DNA from: Streptomyces sp. DG2A-72
GTDB taxonomy: Bacteria; Actinomycetota; Actinomycetes; Streptomycetales; Streptomycetaceae
DNA length: 64,000 nt
Assembly: GCF_030499575.1 (NCBI RefSeq)
Contig: NZ_JASTLC010000001.1
Location: 372,001 to 436,000 of the forward strand
Direction: 5' to 3'
This document shows positions 1 to 6,184 of this stretch, piece after piece; the first letter of the stretch is position 1, and every line of letters begins with the position of its first letter. Position numbers and translations under genes: made by a program. Under the pieces are notes generated by a model. That model was not told where the DNA came from and searched no databases. It saw only the letters and a program-made list of their open reading frames with translations.

Positions 1-49
1 GGCCGGACGGTGTGACAGGGTCGTGGCACCGGAGGCCCGCACCGGCTAG

Positions 50-286
50 CTCCACATCGCTCGTCTCGCCGGCGACGACCTCACGAACCCCGAGATCGGC
101 GCCCAGTTGTTCATCAGCCCTCACACGGTCGAATGGCACCTCCGCAAGGTGTTCTCGAAGCTCGGCATCTCCTCCCGCAAGGAGATCCGCACGACGCGTC
201 TCGCAGACCAGGCGCCGACCCAGCACTCCAACTCCGTCGGGATCTGCCATAGCCGAATTGGTTTCAATCGCAACCGTAACGAATGA
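50..286 (+). pseudogene. LuxR-type HTH regulator, C-terminal relic
   Basis: The frame reads a typical LuxR/GerE helix-turn-helix: [14 protein letters not shown] residues (here [15 protein letters not shown]), then [17 protein letters not shown] and a short tail ending at the TGA at 284-286. Immediately upstream, where the family has an LTPQE-like start of the HTH, an in-frame TAG sits at 47-49 and the preceding bases do not continue the protein. In Streptomyces this HTH is normally the last 60-70 residues of a large AAA-type (LAL) or two-component regulator. Only the DNA-binding tail is left here, although the rest could lie before the window only if a frameshift joined it. I treat it as a degraded tail. 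Confidence 0.6.
254..271. promoter_or_regulatory. candidate MarR operator
   Basis: An imperfect dyad CGAATTGGTTTCAATCG (arms ATTG/CAAT, 4-base centre) lies about 40 bases before the marR start, inside the tail of the LuxR relic. MarR proteins usually bind 16-20 bp dyads in their own promoters. Position fits, but the arms are short. Confidence 0.25.
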
Positions 287-308
287 ATGGCGACGGTACT
301 GTGGCCCC

Positions 309-794
309 ATGAACGCCGACGTTCCTCCCAAACCCACCGCCCCACGCGCGACCGACCGGCCCGGGGACGAATCGCCTTTCGCTCTCGGTCTGCTGCTGCG
401 CCGGGCGCACTGGCATGCGGCGACGGTGATGACGGAGGCGCTCCGGCCCCTCGGAATCGAGCTGCGGCATTTCGCCGTACTGCTCGTACTGGTCGACCGC
501 GGGCCCACGGTGCAGCGGGACTTGGTAACGGCGACGGGGTCGGACAAGGCGGGAATCATGCGGGTCGTGGACGACCTGGAGCGCAAGGGGCTGGCCGTAC
601 GCAAGGCCGTTCCTGGGGACCGCCGGGTTCGCGCAGTGGACATCACACCGCAGGGCATCGAACTTTTCGACGCGGCTCATGTGGCGGCGGCGCCGCTGGC
701 CGAGCGTCTGGTTGCCGGACTTGGGCCCGGCGAACCGGAGCGACTGACGGAATTGCTGACCCGGTTCGCCCACCCCGAGGGCGATGAAGCGTAG
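309..794 (+). CDS. MarR-family transcriptional regulator
   Basis: A 161-residue winged-helix regulator. The recognition region reads TVQRDLVTATGSDKAGIMRVVDDLERKGL at about residues 72-100, followed by the wing (VPGDRRVRAVDITPQG), the usual MarR layout. It probably senses a small aromatic or oxidant ligand in the cytoplasm. The ATG at 309 is chosen because the family's N-terminal helices begin shortly after it; no clear ribosome-binding site precedes it, so the message may be leaderless. It converges on the azoreductase gene, with a strong hairpin between them. The azoreductase/nitroreductase pair next door is a plausible target, by analogy with MarR control of such enzymes. Confidence 0.85.
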   Translation: MNADVPPKPTAPRATDRPGDESPFALGLLLRRAHWHAATVMTEALRPLGIELRHFAVLLVLVDRGPTVQRDLVTATGSDKAGIMRVVDDLERKGLAVRKAVPGDRRVRAVDITPQGIELFDAAHVAAAPLAERLVAGLGPGEPERLTELLTRFAHPEGDEA

Positions 795-850
795 GAGCGA
801 CCGCGCACCGGTCGCCTGCGGCGTAGTCCAGGCCGTCGGCAGCGAGAACG

Positions 851-882
851 CCGTGTGACTCCTGAGTCACGGAGTCACACGG
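851..882. terminator. bidirectional intrinsic terminator
   Basis: Perfect 12-bp stem CCGTGTGACTCC / GGAGTCACACGG with an 8-base loop (TGAGTCAC), placed between the convergent ends of marR (794) and the azoreductase gene (900). There is no T-tract, as is common for Streptomyces terminators. Confidence 0.7.
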
Positions 883-899
883 TGTGACCAGTCCAGGGA

Positions 900-1550
900 T
901 CATGCGGCGAAGCGCTCCGCGAACTCCTTGGCCTTGTTTGCCGCGTCCTCGAAGGCACGCTCGCGGGAGGCCTCGTAGAGGGGGACCAGCTCGGACATGG
1001 CCGGGTTGCGGGGCGCCATGGTGAGTTCCGGGACGATGAAGTGGAGGTCCATGCGGAGGGTGCCCTTGAGTACGGCCTCCAGGTAGTTCTGGACGAACTC
1101 GAAGCCCTCGCGCGGGGTGCCCGGTGCGTAGGAGCCGCCGCGGCTCGCGACCACGATGACCGGAGTGCCCTGGGCGGAGGGGGCCTCACCCGCGGTACGG
1201 CCGAGCAGCAGCACACTGTCCAGCCACGCCTTGAGGGTCGACGGGATCGAAAAGTTGTACATGGGGGCGCCGATCAGGACGGCGTCCGCCTGCTCCAGTT
1301 CCTCGATGAGCTCCACGCGCGCAGCGAACGCGGCGGCCTGCTCCGGGGTGCGCTCGGACGGGGCGGCGTAACCGGCGGACCAGGCGTCGGCGGTGATGTG
1401 CGGTACGGGGTCGGCAGCGAGGTCGCGGTAGATCACCGTGCCCTCCGGGTGCTGCTCCTCCCAGGCCGTGCGGAAGGCGGCCGTGACCGAACGGGACGAG
1501 GACGCCTCGCGAGGGAACACGGACGAGTCGATGTGCAGCAGCGTGGCCAT
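900..1550 (-). CDS. azoR: FMN-dependent NADH-azoreductase
   Basis: A 216-residue flavodoxin-fold enzyme of the AzoR family, which reduces azo bonds and quinones by two-electron transfer from NADH through FMN. Visible landmarks are the N-terminal LLHIDSSVFPREASSSRSV phosphate-binding loop, the PMYNFSIPSTLKAWLD segment (about residues 96-112), and the SRGGSY loop, all diagnostic for AzoR. Length is normal (200-216). It is transcribed away from a nitroreductase relic, and the shared 150-bp gap has two short dyads that could be operators. It may have been part of a divergent detoxification pair before the nitroreductase decayed. Confidence 0.9.
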   Translation of the reverse strand: MATLLHIDSSVFPREASSSRSVTAAFRTAWEEQHPEGTVIYRDLAADPVPHITADAWSAGYAAPSERTPEQAAAFAARVELIEELEQADAVLIGAPMYNFSIPSTLKAWLDSVLLLGRTAGEAPSAQGTPVIVVASRGGSYAPGTPREGFEFVQNYLEAVLKGTLRMDLHFIVPELTMAPRNPAMSELVPLYEASRERAFEDAANKAKEFAERFAA

Positions 1551-1608
1551 GGACGTTCTCCAAAGGGCTGCGCCCGGGGCGGGGCGCCGAGGGCGGTGGA
1601 TTGATGTT

Positions 1609-1645
1609 CAACGTTGGTTATACGCGCGACCGTATTGAATGATAC
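1609..1645. promoter_or_regulatory. candidate operator(s) in azoR / nitroreductase divergent region
   Basis: CAACGTTG (1609-1616, perfect 8-bp palindrome) and GTATTGAATGATAC (1632-1645, arms GTAT/ATAC) lie in the AT-richer gap between the divergent azoR gene and the nitroreductase relic. MarR- or HxlR-type control is possible. The evidence is symmetry and position only. Confidence 0.25.
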
Positions 1646-1699
1646 CATCGCGAATACAACGGAGGGGGGAACGTTGAGTACATGGGGAGGTAGGCGATC

Positions 1700-2180
1700 T
1701 TGGACGTCTATGAGGCGGTCACGAGTCGCCGCGCGGTACGTGGATTCACCGACCGGCCCGCACCGAGGGAGGTATTGGAGCGCGTGGATGCGGGCGACTC
1801 CTGGGACGAGCCGGAGTACCAGCAGTACCCGCCCGCGCTGAAGTCCCCGTACTCCGACCGCCGTTCCGCCTTCGGTGAGCAGCGCTACGGTGCACTCGGA
1901 ATTCCGCGCGAAGACCTGGAGGCGCGCCAGAGGGCCGCCGCCGAGAACTGGAACCGCTTCGGCGCACCCGCCGCCCTGTTCTGCTACATCGACCGCGACA
2001 TGGGCCCGCCCAGTGGTCCGACGTCGGCATGTTTCTGCAGACCGTCATGCTGCGCTCCGTGCCGAAGCGCTGCACAGCTGCACGCAGATGGCGTGGGCGA
2101 AGTATCACAAGGACGTCACGGTGGACTACACGCGTACGGGCCGGGCGCCACTCGACGAGACGGTCACGTTCGTCGGCTGC
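1700..2180 (+). pseudogene. nitroreductase, internally deleted and frameshifted
   Basis: A TTG start with GGGAGG upstream opens MDVYEAVTSRRAVRGFTDRP, the typical start of an FMN nitroreductase. After EVLERV the sequence jumps straight to DAGDSWDEPEYQQYPPALKSPY. The roughly 35-40 residues expected between (the SGSNIQPW-type FMN-binding segment) are missing. The frame holds through FGAPAALFCYIDRDMGPP and is then lost. QWSDVGMFLQTVMLRS continues in a second frame, and LHSCTQMAWAKYHKDV, then YTRTGRAPLDETVTFV (the family's C-terminus), in a third. One internal deletion plus at least two frame changes mean no functional enzyme. Confidence 0.8.
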
Positions 2181-2291
2181 CGGCACCGAGCGGCTACGCG
2201 GTCGGCCGCGGGAAAGGTCTCACAAGATCCGCGTGTGTCCGGTCTCGCGGATGGAGACGAGAGGGCTCAGCCGACGGAGGGAGCACGCCGT

Positions 2292-2903
2292 ATGGACCAC
2301 ACGGATGCGGTGTCGATCGCGGTGTTGCTCGACGAGCGTCGGTTTCCGCTGGATGTCGTCTACTGGTTGCTGGGCAGTCCGGGTGAGGCGGAGAGTGTGG
2401 TCGATGAGACCTACCGCAGGTCGTACCGGCTGTCCGACGGTGCGCGACAGGAGATCACGGTGCCCCGGTCGTGGCCTGCCAGGACCACGGGCGGGATCTG
2501 CCTGGTCCGGGGACGCAGGTGGAGTCGGAGGCCGAGGTCAGCCGGGTTCTGCTGCATGTGCTGGATTCCTTGTCGCCGGCCGAGCGGGCGGTGTTCGTAC
2601 TCAATGACGTCTTCGGGATGGCTCCGGGTACGGTCGCCGACATCGTCGGACGCACCGAGCCGGAGTGCGCCGAACTCGCCGAGCAGGCACGTCAGTGCCT
2701 TCGCCGGCAGCGTTCACGCCCCACGACACCGCGACGGCACGGGCCGGTCCATGGCAGCCGGCAGGTCGCCCACAGTCTGCTCACCCTCCTGACCCGCCGC
2801 CCACGCACCACCGTGAACGCCCAGTCCGTCAACGGCCGCGCCGGCCTCGTCGCCCGCGACGATCACCAAGTCGCCGCCGTCATCAGCCTCGACATCGCCG
2901 ACC
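2292..2903 (+). pseudogene. sigma-70-like (ECF/SigJ-type) factor, internally deleted
   Basis: The start (MDHTDAVSIAVLLDERRF, LGSPGEAESVVDETYRR) is a region-2-like segment of a sigma-factor-like protein. After TGGICLVR the frame changes, and ESEAEVSRVLLHVLDSLSPAERAVFVLNDVFGMAP continues as region 4 (HTH TVADIVGRTEPECAELAEQAR). After RPTTPRRH it jumps to GPVHGSRQVAHSLLTLLTRR, part of the C-terminal SnoaL-like domain, which then stops after ISLDIAD without the usual end. The linker, about 40 residues after region 4, and the C-terminus are missing. An intact SigJ-type gene starts 34 bases downstream, so this may be a decayed neighbour copy. Confidence 0.7.
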
Positions 2904-2936
2904 TGTGTCCCTGCCTGAGGCCTGAACCGGAGGATC

Positions 2937-3893
2937 ATGGATCTCGACCCGCCTCCCACGTCGAGTGGCATCGAAGAGGCTCTGGCTGTCTTTGTGCAGC
3001 ACCGAACGCGCCTGTTCGGCATCGCCTACCGCGTACTCGGCAGCGCGGTCGAGGCTGAAGACGTGGTCCAAGAGGTATGGCTGCGCTGGCAGAAGACCGA
3101 CCGCTCCGTGGTGGTCAGCCCGGTGGCCTTCCTCTCCAGTACGACGACCCGCTTGGCCATCAATGTCGGGCAATCCGCGCGAGTGCGTCGGGAAACCTAC
3201 ATCGGACCGTGGTTGCCGGAGCCCATCGACACGAGCTCCGACCTGGAGGCCGGCGCGCAGCGCGCGGAGGCTCTTGAACTGGCGCTGCTGTTGGTCATGG
3301 AGAAGCTGAGCCCCGCTGAGCGCGCCGCGTACGTACTGCGCGAGGCATTCGACTACCCCTATCCCGAGATCGCCGAGATCCTTCAACTCAGCCTCGTCAA
3401 CGTGCGGCAGATCGTGAGCCGCGCTCGCAAGCATCTGTCGGCCGAGCAGCGGGAGCGCGTGGACACCGCGGAGCACCGGCGACTTCTCAACGCGTTCGTC
3501 TCAGCAGCTCAAACGGGAGATGTGGCTTCACTTGAGGCCCTGCTCACCCCCGATGCCGTCAGTCTGTCCGACGGCAACGGCATGCGGGGCTGCGCTCGCC
3601 TGCCTGTGCTGGGCCGCGCACGTGTGGCCAAGCTGTCGACGCATCGGCAGTTGTGGCGGGAAGCGGAGCCCGAGTTGGTGGACGCCAACGGCTGTACGGG
3701 CGTGATGGTCCGACGAGACGGCCAACCGATCGCGTTCATGACCGTCGCCGCCTCGCCCGAAGGCATCTACAAGGTGCTGTGGCTCTTCAGCCCGGCCAAG
3801 ATCGCCGCATTCCTTGACTCGCGTTCCCGCTTCGCAACTGTTCCCGGCCAGAACCGCATCAACGAACGGTCAGCTTTGAATCCGCCGCCATGA
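2937..3893 (+). CDS. ECF sigma factor, SigJ family, with SnoaL-like C-terminal domain
   Basis: A 318-residue SigJ-type (ECF41-like) sigma factor. Region 2 spans about residues 15-85 (RLFGIAYRVLGSAVEAEDVVQEVWLRW). Region 4 spans about 118-170 (LSPAERAAYVLREAFDYPYPEIAEILQLSLVNVRQIVSRARKHL). A C-terminal NTF2/SnoaL-like domain follows from about 185. In this family the C-terminal domain tunes sigma activity in place of a separate anti-sigma factor. GGAGG eight bases before the ATG supports the start. Its 3' end overlaps the convergent quinone-oxidoreductase gene by 35 bases. SigJ factors often control nearby oxidoreductase genes, so the flavoenzymes here are candidate targets (inference). Confidence 0.9.
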   Translation: MDLDPPPTSSGIEEALAVFVQHRTRLFGIAYRVLGSAVEAEDVVQEVWLRWQKTDRSVVVSPVAFLSSTTTRLAINVGQSARVRRETYIGPWLPEPIDTSSDLEAGAQRAEALELALLLVMEKLSPAERAAYVLREAFDYPYPEIAEILQLSLVNVRQIVSRARKHLSAEQRERVDTAEHRRLLNAFVSAAQTGDVASLEALLTPDAVSLSDGNGMRGCARLPVLGRARVAKLSTHRQLWREAEPELVDANGCTGVMVRRDGQPIAFMTVAASPEGIYKVLWLFSPAKIAAFLDSRSRFATVPGQNRINERSALNPPP

Positions 3894-4539
3894 GCGTGAC
3901 AGCTTTCCCGACGCGCTCCAGCGCCGCTGACCTCTCCTGGTCGGTCATGCGGGCCGGTCCGTAGGTGATGACGGGGTCGAGGACCTCGTAGCCGACGAAC
4001 TCCAGCATGCCGCGGTGGATATGGAACAGGAAGTCGTCCATCGCGCCGAAGGCGCCACCGGGGCGGAACGACTCACTCGAACTGCCCGTCGTGAACAGCA
4101 GCATCGCTCGTTTCCCGGCGAGCGCCGCGTCACCGAAGAGTCCGTGGTCGCCACCGAAGACCGCGCCCATCACGAAGACCCGGTCCACCCACCCCTTGAG
4201 GATGGCCGGCAGCGAGAACCACCACAGCGGGAACGACAGCACGAGCAGGTCGGCGGCGAGCAGCCGATCGAGATGGGCCTTGACGGCCGCGTCGAGCGTC
4301 CCCTCCTTGACCGCGCGCTGTTGCTCGGCCTGCGGCTTGAAGTGGCCGTCCACCGGCCCGAACTCCTCGCGTGCGAGGGCCGGGGCCCATGCCTCGGCAT
4401 AGAGATCGAGGACGTCGACTCGGTATCCGGCATCGCGCAGGGCGTGGGCCGCGGTCGCCATCTGGGCGGTGCTGAACGAGTGGGGCTCGGGGTGGGCGTG
4501 AACGATCAGGGCTGTCGGGGCAGCATCGAAGGTCGACAT
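3859..4539 (-). CDS. NAD(P)H-dependent oxidoreductase, flavodoxin-2 / NQO1-like
   Basis: A 226-residue flavodoxin-like quinone reductase (KefF/MdaB/NQO1 type). The N-terminal ALIVHAHPEPHSFS loop and the FPLWWFSLPAILKGWVDRVF segment (about residues 99-120), with FTTGSS following, are the FMN- and NAD(P)H-site signatures. It catalyses two-electron reduction of quinones, limiting redox cycling. It lies 34 bases downstream of the ArsR gene on the same strand, and the gap holds a copy of the same dyad that precedes arsR. The regulator therefore probably represses both genes. The start is followed closely by the LIVHAHPEPHS loop, which fixes the frame. Confidence 0.88.
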   Translation of the reverse strand: MSTFDAAPTALIVHAHPEPHSFSTAQMATAAHALRDAGYRVDVLDLYAEAWAPALAREEFGPVDGHFKPQAEQQRAVKEGTLDAAVKAHLDRLLAADLLVLSFPLWWFSLPAILKGWVDRVFVMGAVFGGDHGLFGDAALAGKRAMLLFTTGSSSESFRPGGAFGAMDDFLFHIHRGMLEFVGYEVLDPVITYGPARMTDQERSAALERVGKAVTLMAADSKLTVR

Positions 4540-4548
4540 GATGAGATC

Positions 4549-4562
4549 ATATCGACGTATCG
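4549..4562. promoter_or_regulatory. second ArsR-type operator copy
   Basis: ATATCGACGTATCG matches, at 12 of 14 positions, the dyad upstream of arsR read on the opposite strand (ATATCGAGATATCG). It fills the gap between arsR and the oxidoreductase gene, which suggests a second promoter or operator for the enzyme. Confidence 0.5.
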
Positions 4563-4573
4563 CGATGCGTCAA

Positions 4574-4906
4574 TCAGAGGGTGGTGCCGATCGCTCGCGC
4601 GACCTGCGCCAGCCGCTCTTCATCGCGCCGGTAGTGGGTCCACTTGCCCACCCGGGTGGGATGCACGAGCCCCGCCCGTTCGAGCGTGCTCATATAGCTG
4701 GAGACGGTCGACTGCGCGAGTCCCGACTTCGCCTGGATGTGCGTGACGCACACGCCCACCGACTGGCGGTCCGCGATCGGCTCGTACTCGCTGAAGTGCT
4801 TGTCGGGGTCCTTCAGCCACTGCATGATCTGCAAACGGGCAGGGTTGCCAAGGGCCTTGAACACCTCGATCAGATCACTTGACCCCGATCCCACCGCCGT
4901 GGCCAT
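4574..4906 (-). CDS. ArsR-family winged-helix regulator
   Basis: A 110-residue single-domain ArsR/SmtB-type repressor. It opens with LIEVFKALGNPARLQIMQWLKDP (helix 1-2), with the recognition helix region VTHIQAKSGLAQSTVSSYMSTLERAGLV at about residues 52-80 and the wing GKWTHYRRDEERL. No CxC metal site is visible, so it more likely senses a redox or organic signal than a metal. It is first in a two-gene operon with the quinone oxidoreductase. A GATATC-TC-GATATC dyad lies about 40 bases upstream of the start. Confidence 0.88.
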   Translation of the reverse strand: MATAVGSGSSDLIEVFKALGNPARLQIMQWLKDPDKHFSEYEPIADRQSVGVCVTHIQAKSGLAQSTVSSYMSTLERAGLVHPTRVGKWTHYRRDEERLAQVARAIGTTL

Positions 4907-4942
4907 GCGTCACCTCTTTCGCCTTTCACTCCGACACACCAC

Positions 4943-4956
4943 GATATCTCGATATC
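4943..4956. promoter_or_regulatory. ArsR autoregulatory operator
   Basis: GATATC repeated around a 2-base centre (GATATCTCGATATC), nearly perfect two-fold symmetry, 37 bases upstream of the arsR start. It is AT-rich in a GC-rich region, which is usual for ArsR binding sites overlapping a promoter. Confidence 0.55.
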
Positions 4957-5122
4957 TCATCGGGTCGGACTCGCTGTCACCGCTGAGAGCCCCGCCGAGC
5001 ATCAGGCCGCCTGCGGGTGACCGGTCGCACGACCGCGACCGTTCCTTCACGGTTCCGGCGTTGCCCGGATCTGCGTGCTCACAACAAACTGTCTGCCACG
5101 CGCGGACATGGGAGATCACGCG

Positions 5123-5623
5123 ATGGCGGAGACCACGGGCGGTGCCGACAAGCCGCCTCCGAAGGCCGCTCTGGGTCGGCGTACGCTCCTGACTTACCTG
5201 GTCGCCGCCCCCACCCTGACCGTGGCCACCGGCCTCGCTCCCGCCACAGCCGCGGCTGCCGCTCCCAGAGCGGTGATCGCGGTGGACGTCGGGCGGCCGA
5301 TCAACCCGCGCGGCATCGAGGCACAGATGGTCGGCGGGCTGACGGACGCGATCTCGACGACGCTGACCGCAGGACTGCATATCGACAAAGGGCTGCCCCT
5401 GGAGGGCAGTTACTCGCAGTTCCACTATGCGCGGCAGCGGAATTCGCCGACCGATGTGCAGGTCATCGTCATGCCCGCGCACGGCGAACCGGGCGGGGCG
5501 GGTGAGCTGGGCGTCCCCGCCGCGGTCGGCGCCATCGCGAACGCGTACGCCCGGGCCACCGGCACCCGTCCTCGCAGTTTCCCCGTCGACTTCCCCGTCG
5601 ACTTCGAACCCTTCCCGCGCTGA
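5123..5623 (+). pseudogene. molybdenum hydroxylase large subunit (IorB-like), huge in-frame deletion
   Basis: The first 47 residues are a Tat-type signal region (LGRRTLLTYLVAAPTLTV) typical of isoquinoline 1-oxidoreductase beta subunits. It then runs directly into the extreme C-terminus of such a protein: [71 protein letters not shown] full subunit is about 700-750 residues and this reading is 166. Almost the whole molybdopterin-binding body is gone, while the frame is preserved. The short protein could be made (GGAGA nine bases before the ATG) but has no catalytic core. The [2Fe-2S] partner follows 46 bases later. Confidence 0.8.
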
Positions 5624-5669
5624 GGCCCCCCACCACAGGCCCGGCCCCACACCGCGCAGGAGCGCCCGC

Positions 5670-6155
5670 ATGCCCCAGCACACCTTCACCGTGAACGGCA
5701 CCTCCGTGACCGTCGACGCCCCCGCCGACCTGCCTCTGCTGTGGGTCCTGCGTGACCTTCTCGGCATCCGCGGGCCCAAGTACGGCTGCGGCATCGACGT
5801 CTGCAAGGCCTGCACCAGCCATCTGGACGGCGAGGCCGTCAACCCGTGCGTGGTCCCCGTCTCCGAGGCCGCCGGACGACAGGTCACCACCATCGAGGGC
5901 CTCGCCGACGGCGAGCGTCTCCATCCTGTCCAGGAGGCCTGGCTGGAGCAGGACGTCCCCCAGTGCGGTTACTGCCAGCCCGGCCAGATCATGGCCGCCG
6001 TCGCCCTGTTGAAGAGGACCAGCAACCCCACCGACGCCGATATCGACGCGATCGACAACGTCTGCCGCTGCGGGACGTACTTCCGCGTCCGTGAGGCCAT
6101 CAAGCTGGCGGCGGCGAAGATGGCGGCGGCCGAGACCTCCCAGCAGACCGTCTGA
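5670..6155 (+). CDS. iorA: [2Fe-2S] small subunit of a molybdenum hydroxylase (IorA-like)
   Basis: A 161-residue two-cluster ferredoxin subunit of the xanthine-dehydrogenase superfamily, which passes electrons from the molybdopterin site. The plant-type cluster ligands are C40, C45, C48 and C60. The second, alpha-helical cluster has C99 and C102 (CGYCQPG) and C132 and C134 (CRCGTY). All eight ligands are present, so the gene looks intact. CAGGAG eight bases upstream marks the start. Its partner large subunit immediately upstream is reduced to its two ends, so this gene is probably an orphan unless another large subunit exists elsewhere. Confidence 0.9.
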
Positions 6156-6184
6156 AGCCCCCATGACCGGGGTCGATGCGGTGG

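Follow-up and report, generated by a model that had tools for sequence, protein, structure and literature searches.

Deletion-rich decay as the probable origin of a nitroreductase relic and a sigma-factor relic in Streptomyces sp. DG2A-72

Why should several genes persist only as remnants within 5.6 kb of a Streptomyces chromosome while the genes between them stay whole? The question is raised by the left end of a 64,000-nucleotide stretch of Streptomyces sp. DG2A-72 (the window; genome G000, contig C1:372001-436000), where the original prediction saw a LuxR, a nitroreductase, a sigma-factor and a molybdenum-hydroxylase (Mo-hydroxylase) gene all reduced to ends or joined ends by repeated small deletions. 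The genome comprises 10.58 Mb in 3 contigs, 10.30 Mb of it in C1, and the window starts 372 kb from one C1 end, presumably in a chromosome arm. For the nitroreductase gene and the sigma-factor gene next to it, here called SigA, the answer is very likely the ordinary decay of pseudogenes, rich in deletions that illegitimate recombination or end joining would have produced; it looks like a known kind of gene erosion and no new process.

Among the matches listed by a DNA search of 61 genomes (own included), there was one strongly colinear relative, Streptomyces blattellae TRM63209 (G022; contig C88, probably NZ_WJBG01000150.1). Window positions 53-3845 are colinear with C88 25677-29983 at ~90% identity, and gene order is identical, with open frames for both the nitroreductase and SigA in G022. 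Global alignment of window 53-3850 with this sequence revealed window-side losses of more than 60 bp in the nitroreductase gene (D1 and D2, at 1778 and 2110) and on the SigA side (D3, D4 and D5, at 2510, 2740 and 2903). The two relics and their junctions are as follows:

1700..2190, plus strand: nitroreductase relic; 222 amino acids and open in G022, where the protein matches PF00881.
1778..1786, plus strand: junction D1, 111 bp lost, frame kept; one copy of the 9-bp GAGCGCGTG left.
2105..2125, plus strand: junction D2, 69 bp lost, frame kept; imperfect likeness between the flanks.
2284..2930, plus strand: SigA relic, a sigma-70-like region 2/4 protein; 294-305 amino acids in G022.
2505..2515, plus strand: junction D3, 69 bp lost in a linker of variable length, from the G022 alignment.
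2738..2744, plus strand: junction D4, 123 bp (41 codons) lost, frame kept; 2-bp microhomology.
2901..2907, plus strand: junction D5, 111 bp lost, comprising the SigA 3′ end, its stop and intergenic DNA, from the G022 alignment.

Smaller changes accompany the large ones. The nitroreductase relic also has 1-bp losses at about 2005 and 2054, and its 3′ end is rearranged at about 2179-2188. SigA has a 1-bp loss at about 2514, four bases from D3, which brings the net loss there to 70 bp and breaks the frame, and two small losses, one of 1 bp and one of 7 bp, some 20 bases past D5 bring the net loss at that end to 119 bp. Both reading frames are disrupted by 1-bp losses and core protein segments are gone; the intact genes that G022 also has, namely MarR, the flavodoxin-fold gene at 900..1550 and SigB, show no large indel relative to it.

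The lost segments with their flanks were counted in 171 of 204 loci, loci of the own genome and of G022 being excluded, and were represented by 37, 36, 13, 24 and 11 distinct sequences for D1 to D5, respectively. Linker length at D3 varies among relatives, with more than 6 gap positions in 6 of the 13 distinct sequences. None of 94 loci with matches bridged D1, D2, D4 or D5, and D3 was bridged by 10 of them, always with 37-71 gap positions (own-region loci were left out of this test, and several loci cover one place). A DNA survey for short forms extended to 392 genomes, own included, as a sample of the genus, 306 of them with a match; among the matches listed, those of other genomes stop at or a few bases from the junctions, the exceptions being the D3 linker and one match in G092. 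The latter seemed to bridge D1 and was rejected, since it is a paralogue with a different 69-bp in-frame loss and G092 also has a full-length copy. This paralogue (L203 1506-2115, G092:C1, minus strand) is an observation in its own right, an independent loss overlapping the D1 segment with no stop in the translated match.

A protein search at E 1e-30 gave 3944 nitroreductase homologues, the best 120 of which are all at least 221 amino acids long; they are the best by score, a ranking biased towards full-length proteins. Given full segments elsewhere and the lack of loci bridging four of the five junctions, the five losses appear, as far as seen, to be derived and private to this lineage among the relatives searched. 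Short forms conserved in many relatives, which would have counted against the original prediction, were not found in this sample. That the relics are instead compact in-frame variants selected for a job of their own is extremely improbable: D1, D2 and D4 are in frame, and what is left of the Mo-hydroxylase reads as a single open frame whose C-terminus differs from relatives mainly at third positions, but 1-bp losses interrupt the frames of both the nitroreductase and SigA, core protein segments are lost and no relative searched has the short forms.

The junctions themselves are of more than one type. At D1, the perfect 9-bp repeat GAGCGCGTG bounds the lost segment at both ends in G022, and one copy is kept in the window; a repeat of this strength at that spacing has P = 0.0038 relative to the same contig. 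Slippage or annealing at these direct repeats is the probable origin of D1. Exact microhomology at D2 to D5 is limited to 0-2 bp and two Ku genes exceed the family cut-off in the genome, which is compatible with, though not proof of, non-homologous end joining at these four junctions. Hairpin-driven deletion was considered and rejected: when each of the five lost segments, flanks included, was folded and ranked by energy against random segments from the same contig, the ranks were 51st to 199th of 200, with no excess of structure. Transposon damage had been discounted in the original prediction, and for the two genes this stands insofar as the colinear G022 alignment (53-3845) contains no inserted element; no search aimed at transposase families was made, and annotation of the 16.7-kb segment that precedes LuxR was incomplete.

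Substitutions between the window and G022 were placed on the two branches with 6-7 outgroup sequences per gene, picked by DNA identity without a tree, and sites with less than 60% outgroup agreement were set aside (8 in the nitroreductase gene, 7 in SigA and 31 in SigB). For SigA, nonsynonymous/synonymous changes number 21/10 on the own branch and 5/12 on that of G022 (Fisher P = 0.016). By codon position, the own-branch changes are spread evenly (12/11/8), as against 2/2/13 for G022. By these counts selection on SigA appears relaxed, with point-mutation decay accompanying deletion there, and SigA has probably decayed for longer, the nitroreductase gene having been broken late. Deletion in place of point-mutation decay, as the original prediction had it, does not hold for SigA, and its picture of whole middles missing between clean flanks is too strong for relics that have frameshifts and, in SigA, excess nonsynonymous change. 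The repeated small deletions that it postulated are borne out for the nitroreductase gene and SigA, where they appear lineage-specific; the LuxR and Mo-hydroxylase relics, discussed below, have other origins.

Several results weigh against deletion-rich decay as set out so far. The nitroreductase counts (7/7 on the own branch and 6/7 on that of G022; P = 1.0) give no sign of relaxation, which suggests that the two large and two small losses in this gene came fast relative to point changes. Own-branch counts for SigA do not differ significantly from those for the intact SigB (12/9, with 15/16 on the G022 branch; P = 0.56), and outgroup orthology in all these comparisons is by DNA identity without a tree. 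The repeat score is not above chance at D2 (P = 0.23), D3 (0.53), D4 (0.93) or D5 (1.0), so that the proposed mechanism is only partly supported: the 9-bp repeat favours slippage at D1, and slippage is not shown as a uniform mechanism. Finally, D1, D2 and D4 clearly keep the frame, for which the naive probability is 0.037, rising to 0.11 when phase bias is allowed for.

The phase bias was estimated from G022 C88 and own C1:300001-436000. Chance matches that lie 60-132 bp apart are in codon phase in 36% of cases at lengths of at least 1 bp, 39% at 2 bp or more and 68-74% at 9 bp or more; matches of at least 12 bp gave merely 10 and 6 pairs, 70% and 33% of them in phase. Since repeats are increasingly in phase with length, repeat-mediated deletions here should often stay in frame. 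We considered whether this could be a general property of very GC-rich, strongly codon-periodic genomes, in which deletions at repeats or microhomologies would tend to be in frame and genes would shrink in frame and break later, leaving compact relics. The idea is improbable. In-frame cases are D1, D2, D4, the Mo-hydroxylase loss and the separate 69-bp loss in the G092 paralogue, a pattern that is suggestive at most, and D3, which is out of frame if the neighbouring 1-bp loss belongs to it, weighs against such a phase rule. A stronger version, in which all five aligned lengths are divisible by three (naive P = 0.004, or 0.014 with phase bias), is overstated in view of the net losses at D3 and D5, the latter without a coding frame. 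A literature search that combined in-frame deletion, microhomology and GC-rich DNA yielded two papers, which, judging from their titles and abstracts, deal with other subjects. Should a survey bear the phase effect out, it would amount to a minor mutational rule of GC-rich genomes.

All window-side losses of 60 bp or more, five in number, fall within 1.2 kb, and nothing longer than 35 bp is missing on the window side in eight other colinear blocks compared with G022 (25,504 aligned bases). This control consists of BLAST blocks only, so a block-ending loss would escape the count, and between blocks the window side has mostly extra DNA. Five losses in 1.2 kb against none above 35 bp in 25.5 kb could reflect a local burst, that is, an unusual mutational event of one or several quick break-and-join episodes, and the nitroreductase substitutions, which still look constrained, would fit it. 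Clustering in pseudogenes is nevertheless expected, because intact genes cannot tolerate, and hence cannot show, such losses. The junction types also differ, with a 9-bp repeat at one and none at others, and apparent relaxation in SigA and not in the nitroreductase gene may point to separate times. We consider a burst improbable.

An error of assembly or consensus, with the missing pieces present in the organism and dropped from the assembly, is still less probable. It would account for three 1-bp losses sitting in the same genes, but the flanking shared genes have no frameshifts relative to G022 and a nearby 10.4-kb block has one 3-bp indel in total. Moreover, SigA substitutions look relaxed, the deleted segments are not unusually structured and DNA searches found no second intact nitroreductase copy in the genome.

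The course of decay that we propose starts from a nitroreductase and a SigA that had become dispensable; the latter is possibly redundant with an open SigA-SigB pair nearby, redundancy as the cause being something we infer. Separate illegitimate deletions of ~70-120 bp and 1-bp losses would then have piled up in both genes while the neighbours stayed under selection. D1 would have been formed by slippage or annealing at the 9-bp repeats, and the other junctions by joining with little or no microhomology; the enzymes involved and the number and order of events are likewise what we infer. The Mo-hydroxylase gene would have suffered a separate, single in-frame loss, and LuxR would have been cut by replacement with other DNA.

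The evidence for these last two cases is distinct from that for the small deletions. C1 matches C88 up to 355314 (C88 23068) and again from 372053 (25677), and the intervening C1:355315-372052 (16.7 kb) replaces 2.6 kb of G022 that hold most of LuxR. Only the C-terminal helix-turn-helix (HTH) end of the gene is left in the window, cut from outside, and its left border is, on this alignment, best described as a rearrangement breakpoint and not as an internal deletion. The LuxR frame of G022 is open back into the upstream oxidoreductase (1434 codons), and LuxR there probably starts mid-protein, already truncated at its 5′ end.

The Mo-hydroxylase relic does consist of joined ends: a signal-like, apparently Tat-like N-terminus is fused in frame to the C-terminal ~117 amino acids of a protein of ~750. 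G012 has a full-length form of 753 amino acids with a similar N-terminus, and nine further loci have open frames of 617-619 amino acids that reach the locus edge, so that ~580 codons (~1.7 kb) are missing in the window. The comparison identifies the truncation as what appears to be one single in-frame deletion. Among the matches listed, those of other genomes begin at window position ~5248 or later, and the nearest relatives are 79-81% identical in the C-terminus only, too distant to place the breakpoint or test for repeats. In what remains of the C-terminus, most differences from relatives are at third positions, a pattern also seen among the relatives themselves, so the loss looks recent. 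With a rearrangement for LuxR, a single loss for the Mo-hydroxylase and multiple small deletions for the other two genes, the supposed cluster mixes three processes.

The remaining genes of the region, including those between the relics, which are open as the original prediction had stated, are these:

53..286, plus strand: LuxR relic, C-terminal HTH end only, with G022 homology from window position 53; the family type is our reading of the translation.
309..794, plus strand: MarR-family regulator, intact; Pfam MarR_2.
900..1550, minus strand: flavodoxin-fold/FMN-dependent reductase, intact; an open reading frame (ORF) of 216 amino acids, equal in length in G022, where the orthologue matches Flavodoxin_2.
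2937..3893, plus strand: SigB, a sigma factor with a SnoaL-like tail, intact; 318-amino-acid ORF with 90% identity to G022, where the orthologue matches Sigma70 r2 and r4.
3859..4539, minus strand: flavodoxin-fold reductase, intact; Flavodoxin_2, with 82-88% identical DNA in G009, G032, G021 and G035.
4574..4906, minus strand: ArsR/IclR-type regulator, intact; HTH_IclR/HTH_5.
5075..5623, plus strand: Mo-hydroxylase large-subunit relic, 182 amino acids; C-terminal part of PF20256 only.
5671..6155, plus strand: presumably the [2Fe-2S] small subunit of the hydroxylase; open, with its frame inside ORF 5427-6155.

Differences between the MarR gene and its G022 counterpart number 10, 5 and 30 by codon position and are mostly at the third. 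In L048 and L054, DNA 77-78% identical to the small subunit adjoins a full-length large subunit. G022 C88 lacks window 3846-6179, with the second flavodoxin-fold gene (3859..4539), the ArsR-type gene and the Mo-hydroxylase genes, and has ~420 bp there instead, and G022 synteny picks up again at window 6180; overall, the window lies in a patchwork of inserted and lost DNA when compared with G022.

Among the genes of the 16.7-kb segment C1:355315-372052 are one for a pyridine-nucleotide oxidoreductase and the paralogous SigA-SigB pair. Both the SigA-like and the SigB-like gene of the pair are open (C1:364296-366701, 6-8 kb upstream). A further SigA relic lies reversed behind the SigB paralogue (C1:366985-367119, i.e., L009 6985-7119, minus strand) and comprises the last ~46 codons. 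SigA and SigB are arranged tail to tail in the relatives' loci L088, L173, L093, L087, L047 and L174 but point the same way in G022, in the window and in the own pair upstream of it, and the differing orientation implies an inversion.

Deletion-biased erosion of bacterial pseudogenes has been described (PMC5447742, citing Mira 2001 and Kuo 2009), and in that account, as here, one small deletion after another whittles down unneeded genes but spares their functional neighbours; what differs is that the present losses are of 69-123 bp, several per gene, with three in frame. RecA-independent deletion between short direct repeats, like the occurrence of short repeats at indels, is discussed for Streptococcus agalactiae (PMC3637634). 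D1 resembles these in having lost one 9-bp repeat and the intervening DNA, whereas D2 to D5 lack a repeat above chance. Ku-type end joining operates in Streptomyces according to the cited portion of PMC5124664. The two Ku genes and the four junctions with 0-2 bp of microhomology are in keeping with it, but nothing ties the junctions to Ku, and ordinary replication errors could leave the same scars. Insertions and deletions are enriched in Streptomyces chromosome arms (PMC8627663), which the present region resembles in its location, 372 kb from one end of its 10.3-Mb contig, and in its mosaic relation to G022; that work, in its cited part, concerns arm indels in general and not relics with several internal deletions.

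The locus provides a resolved example of how unneeded genes vanish from a Streptomyces chromosome, since a syntenic open copy at ~90% identity lets the main breakpoints of two genes be read. It is also a caution against reading such patches as the work of one exotic process, given three different causes of truncation within 5.6 kb.

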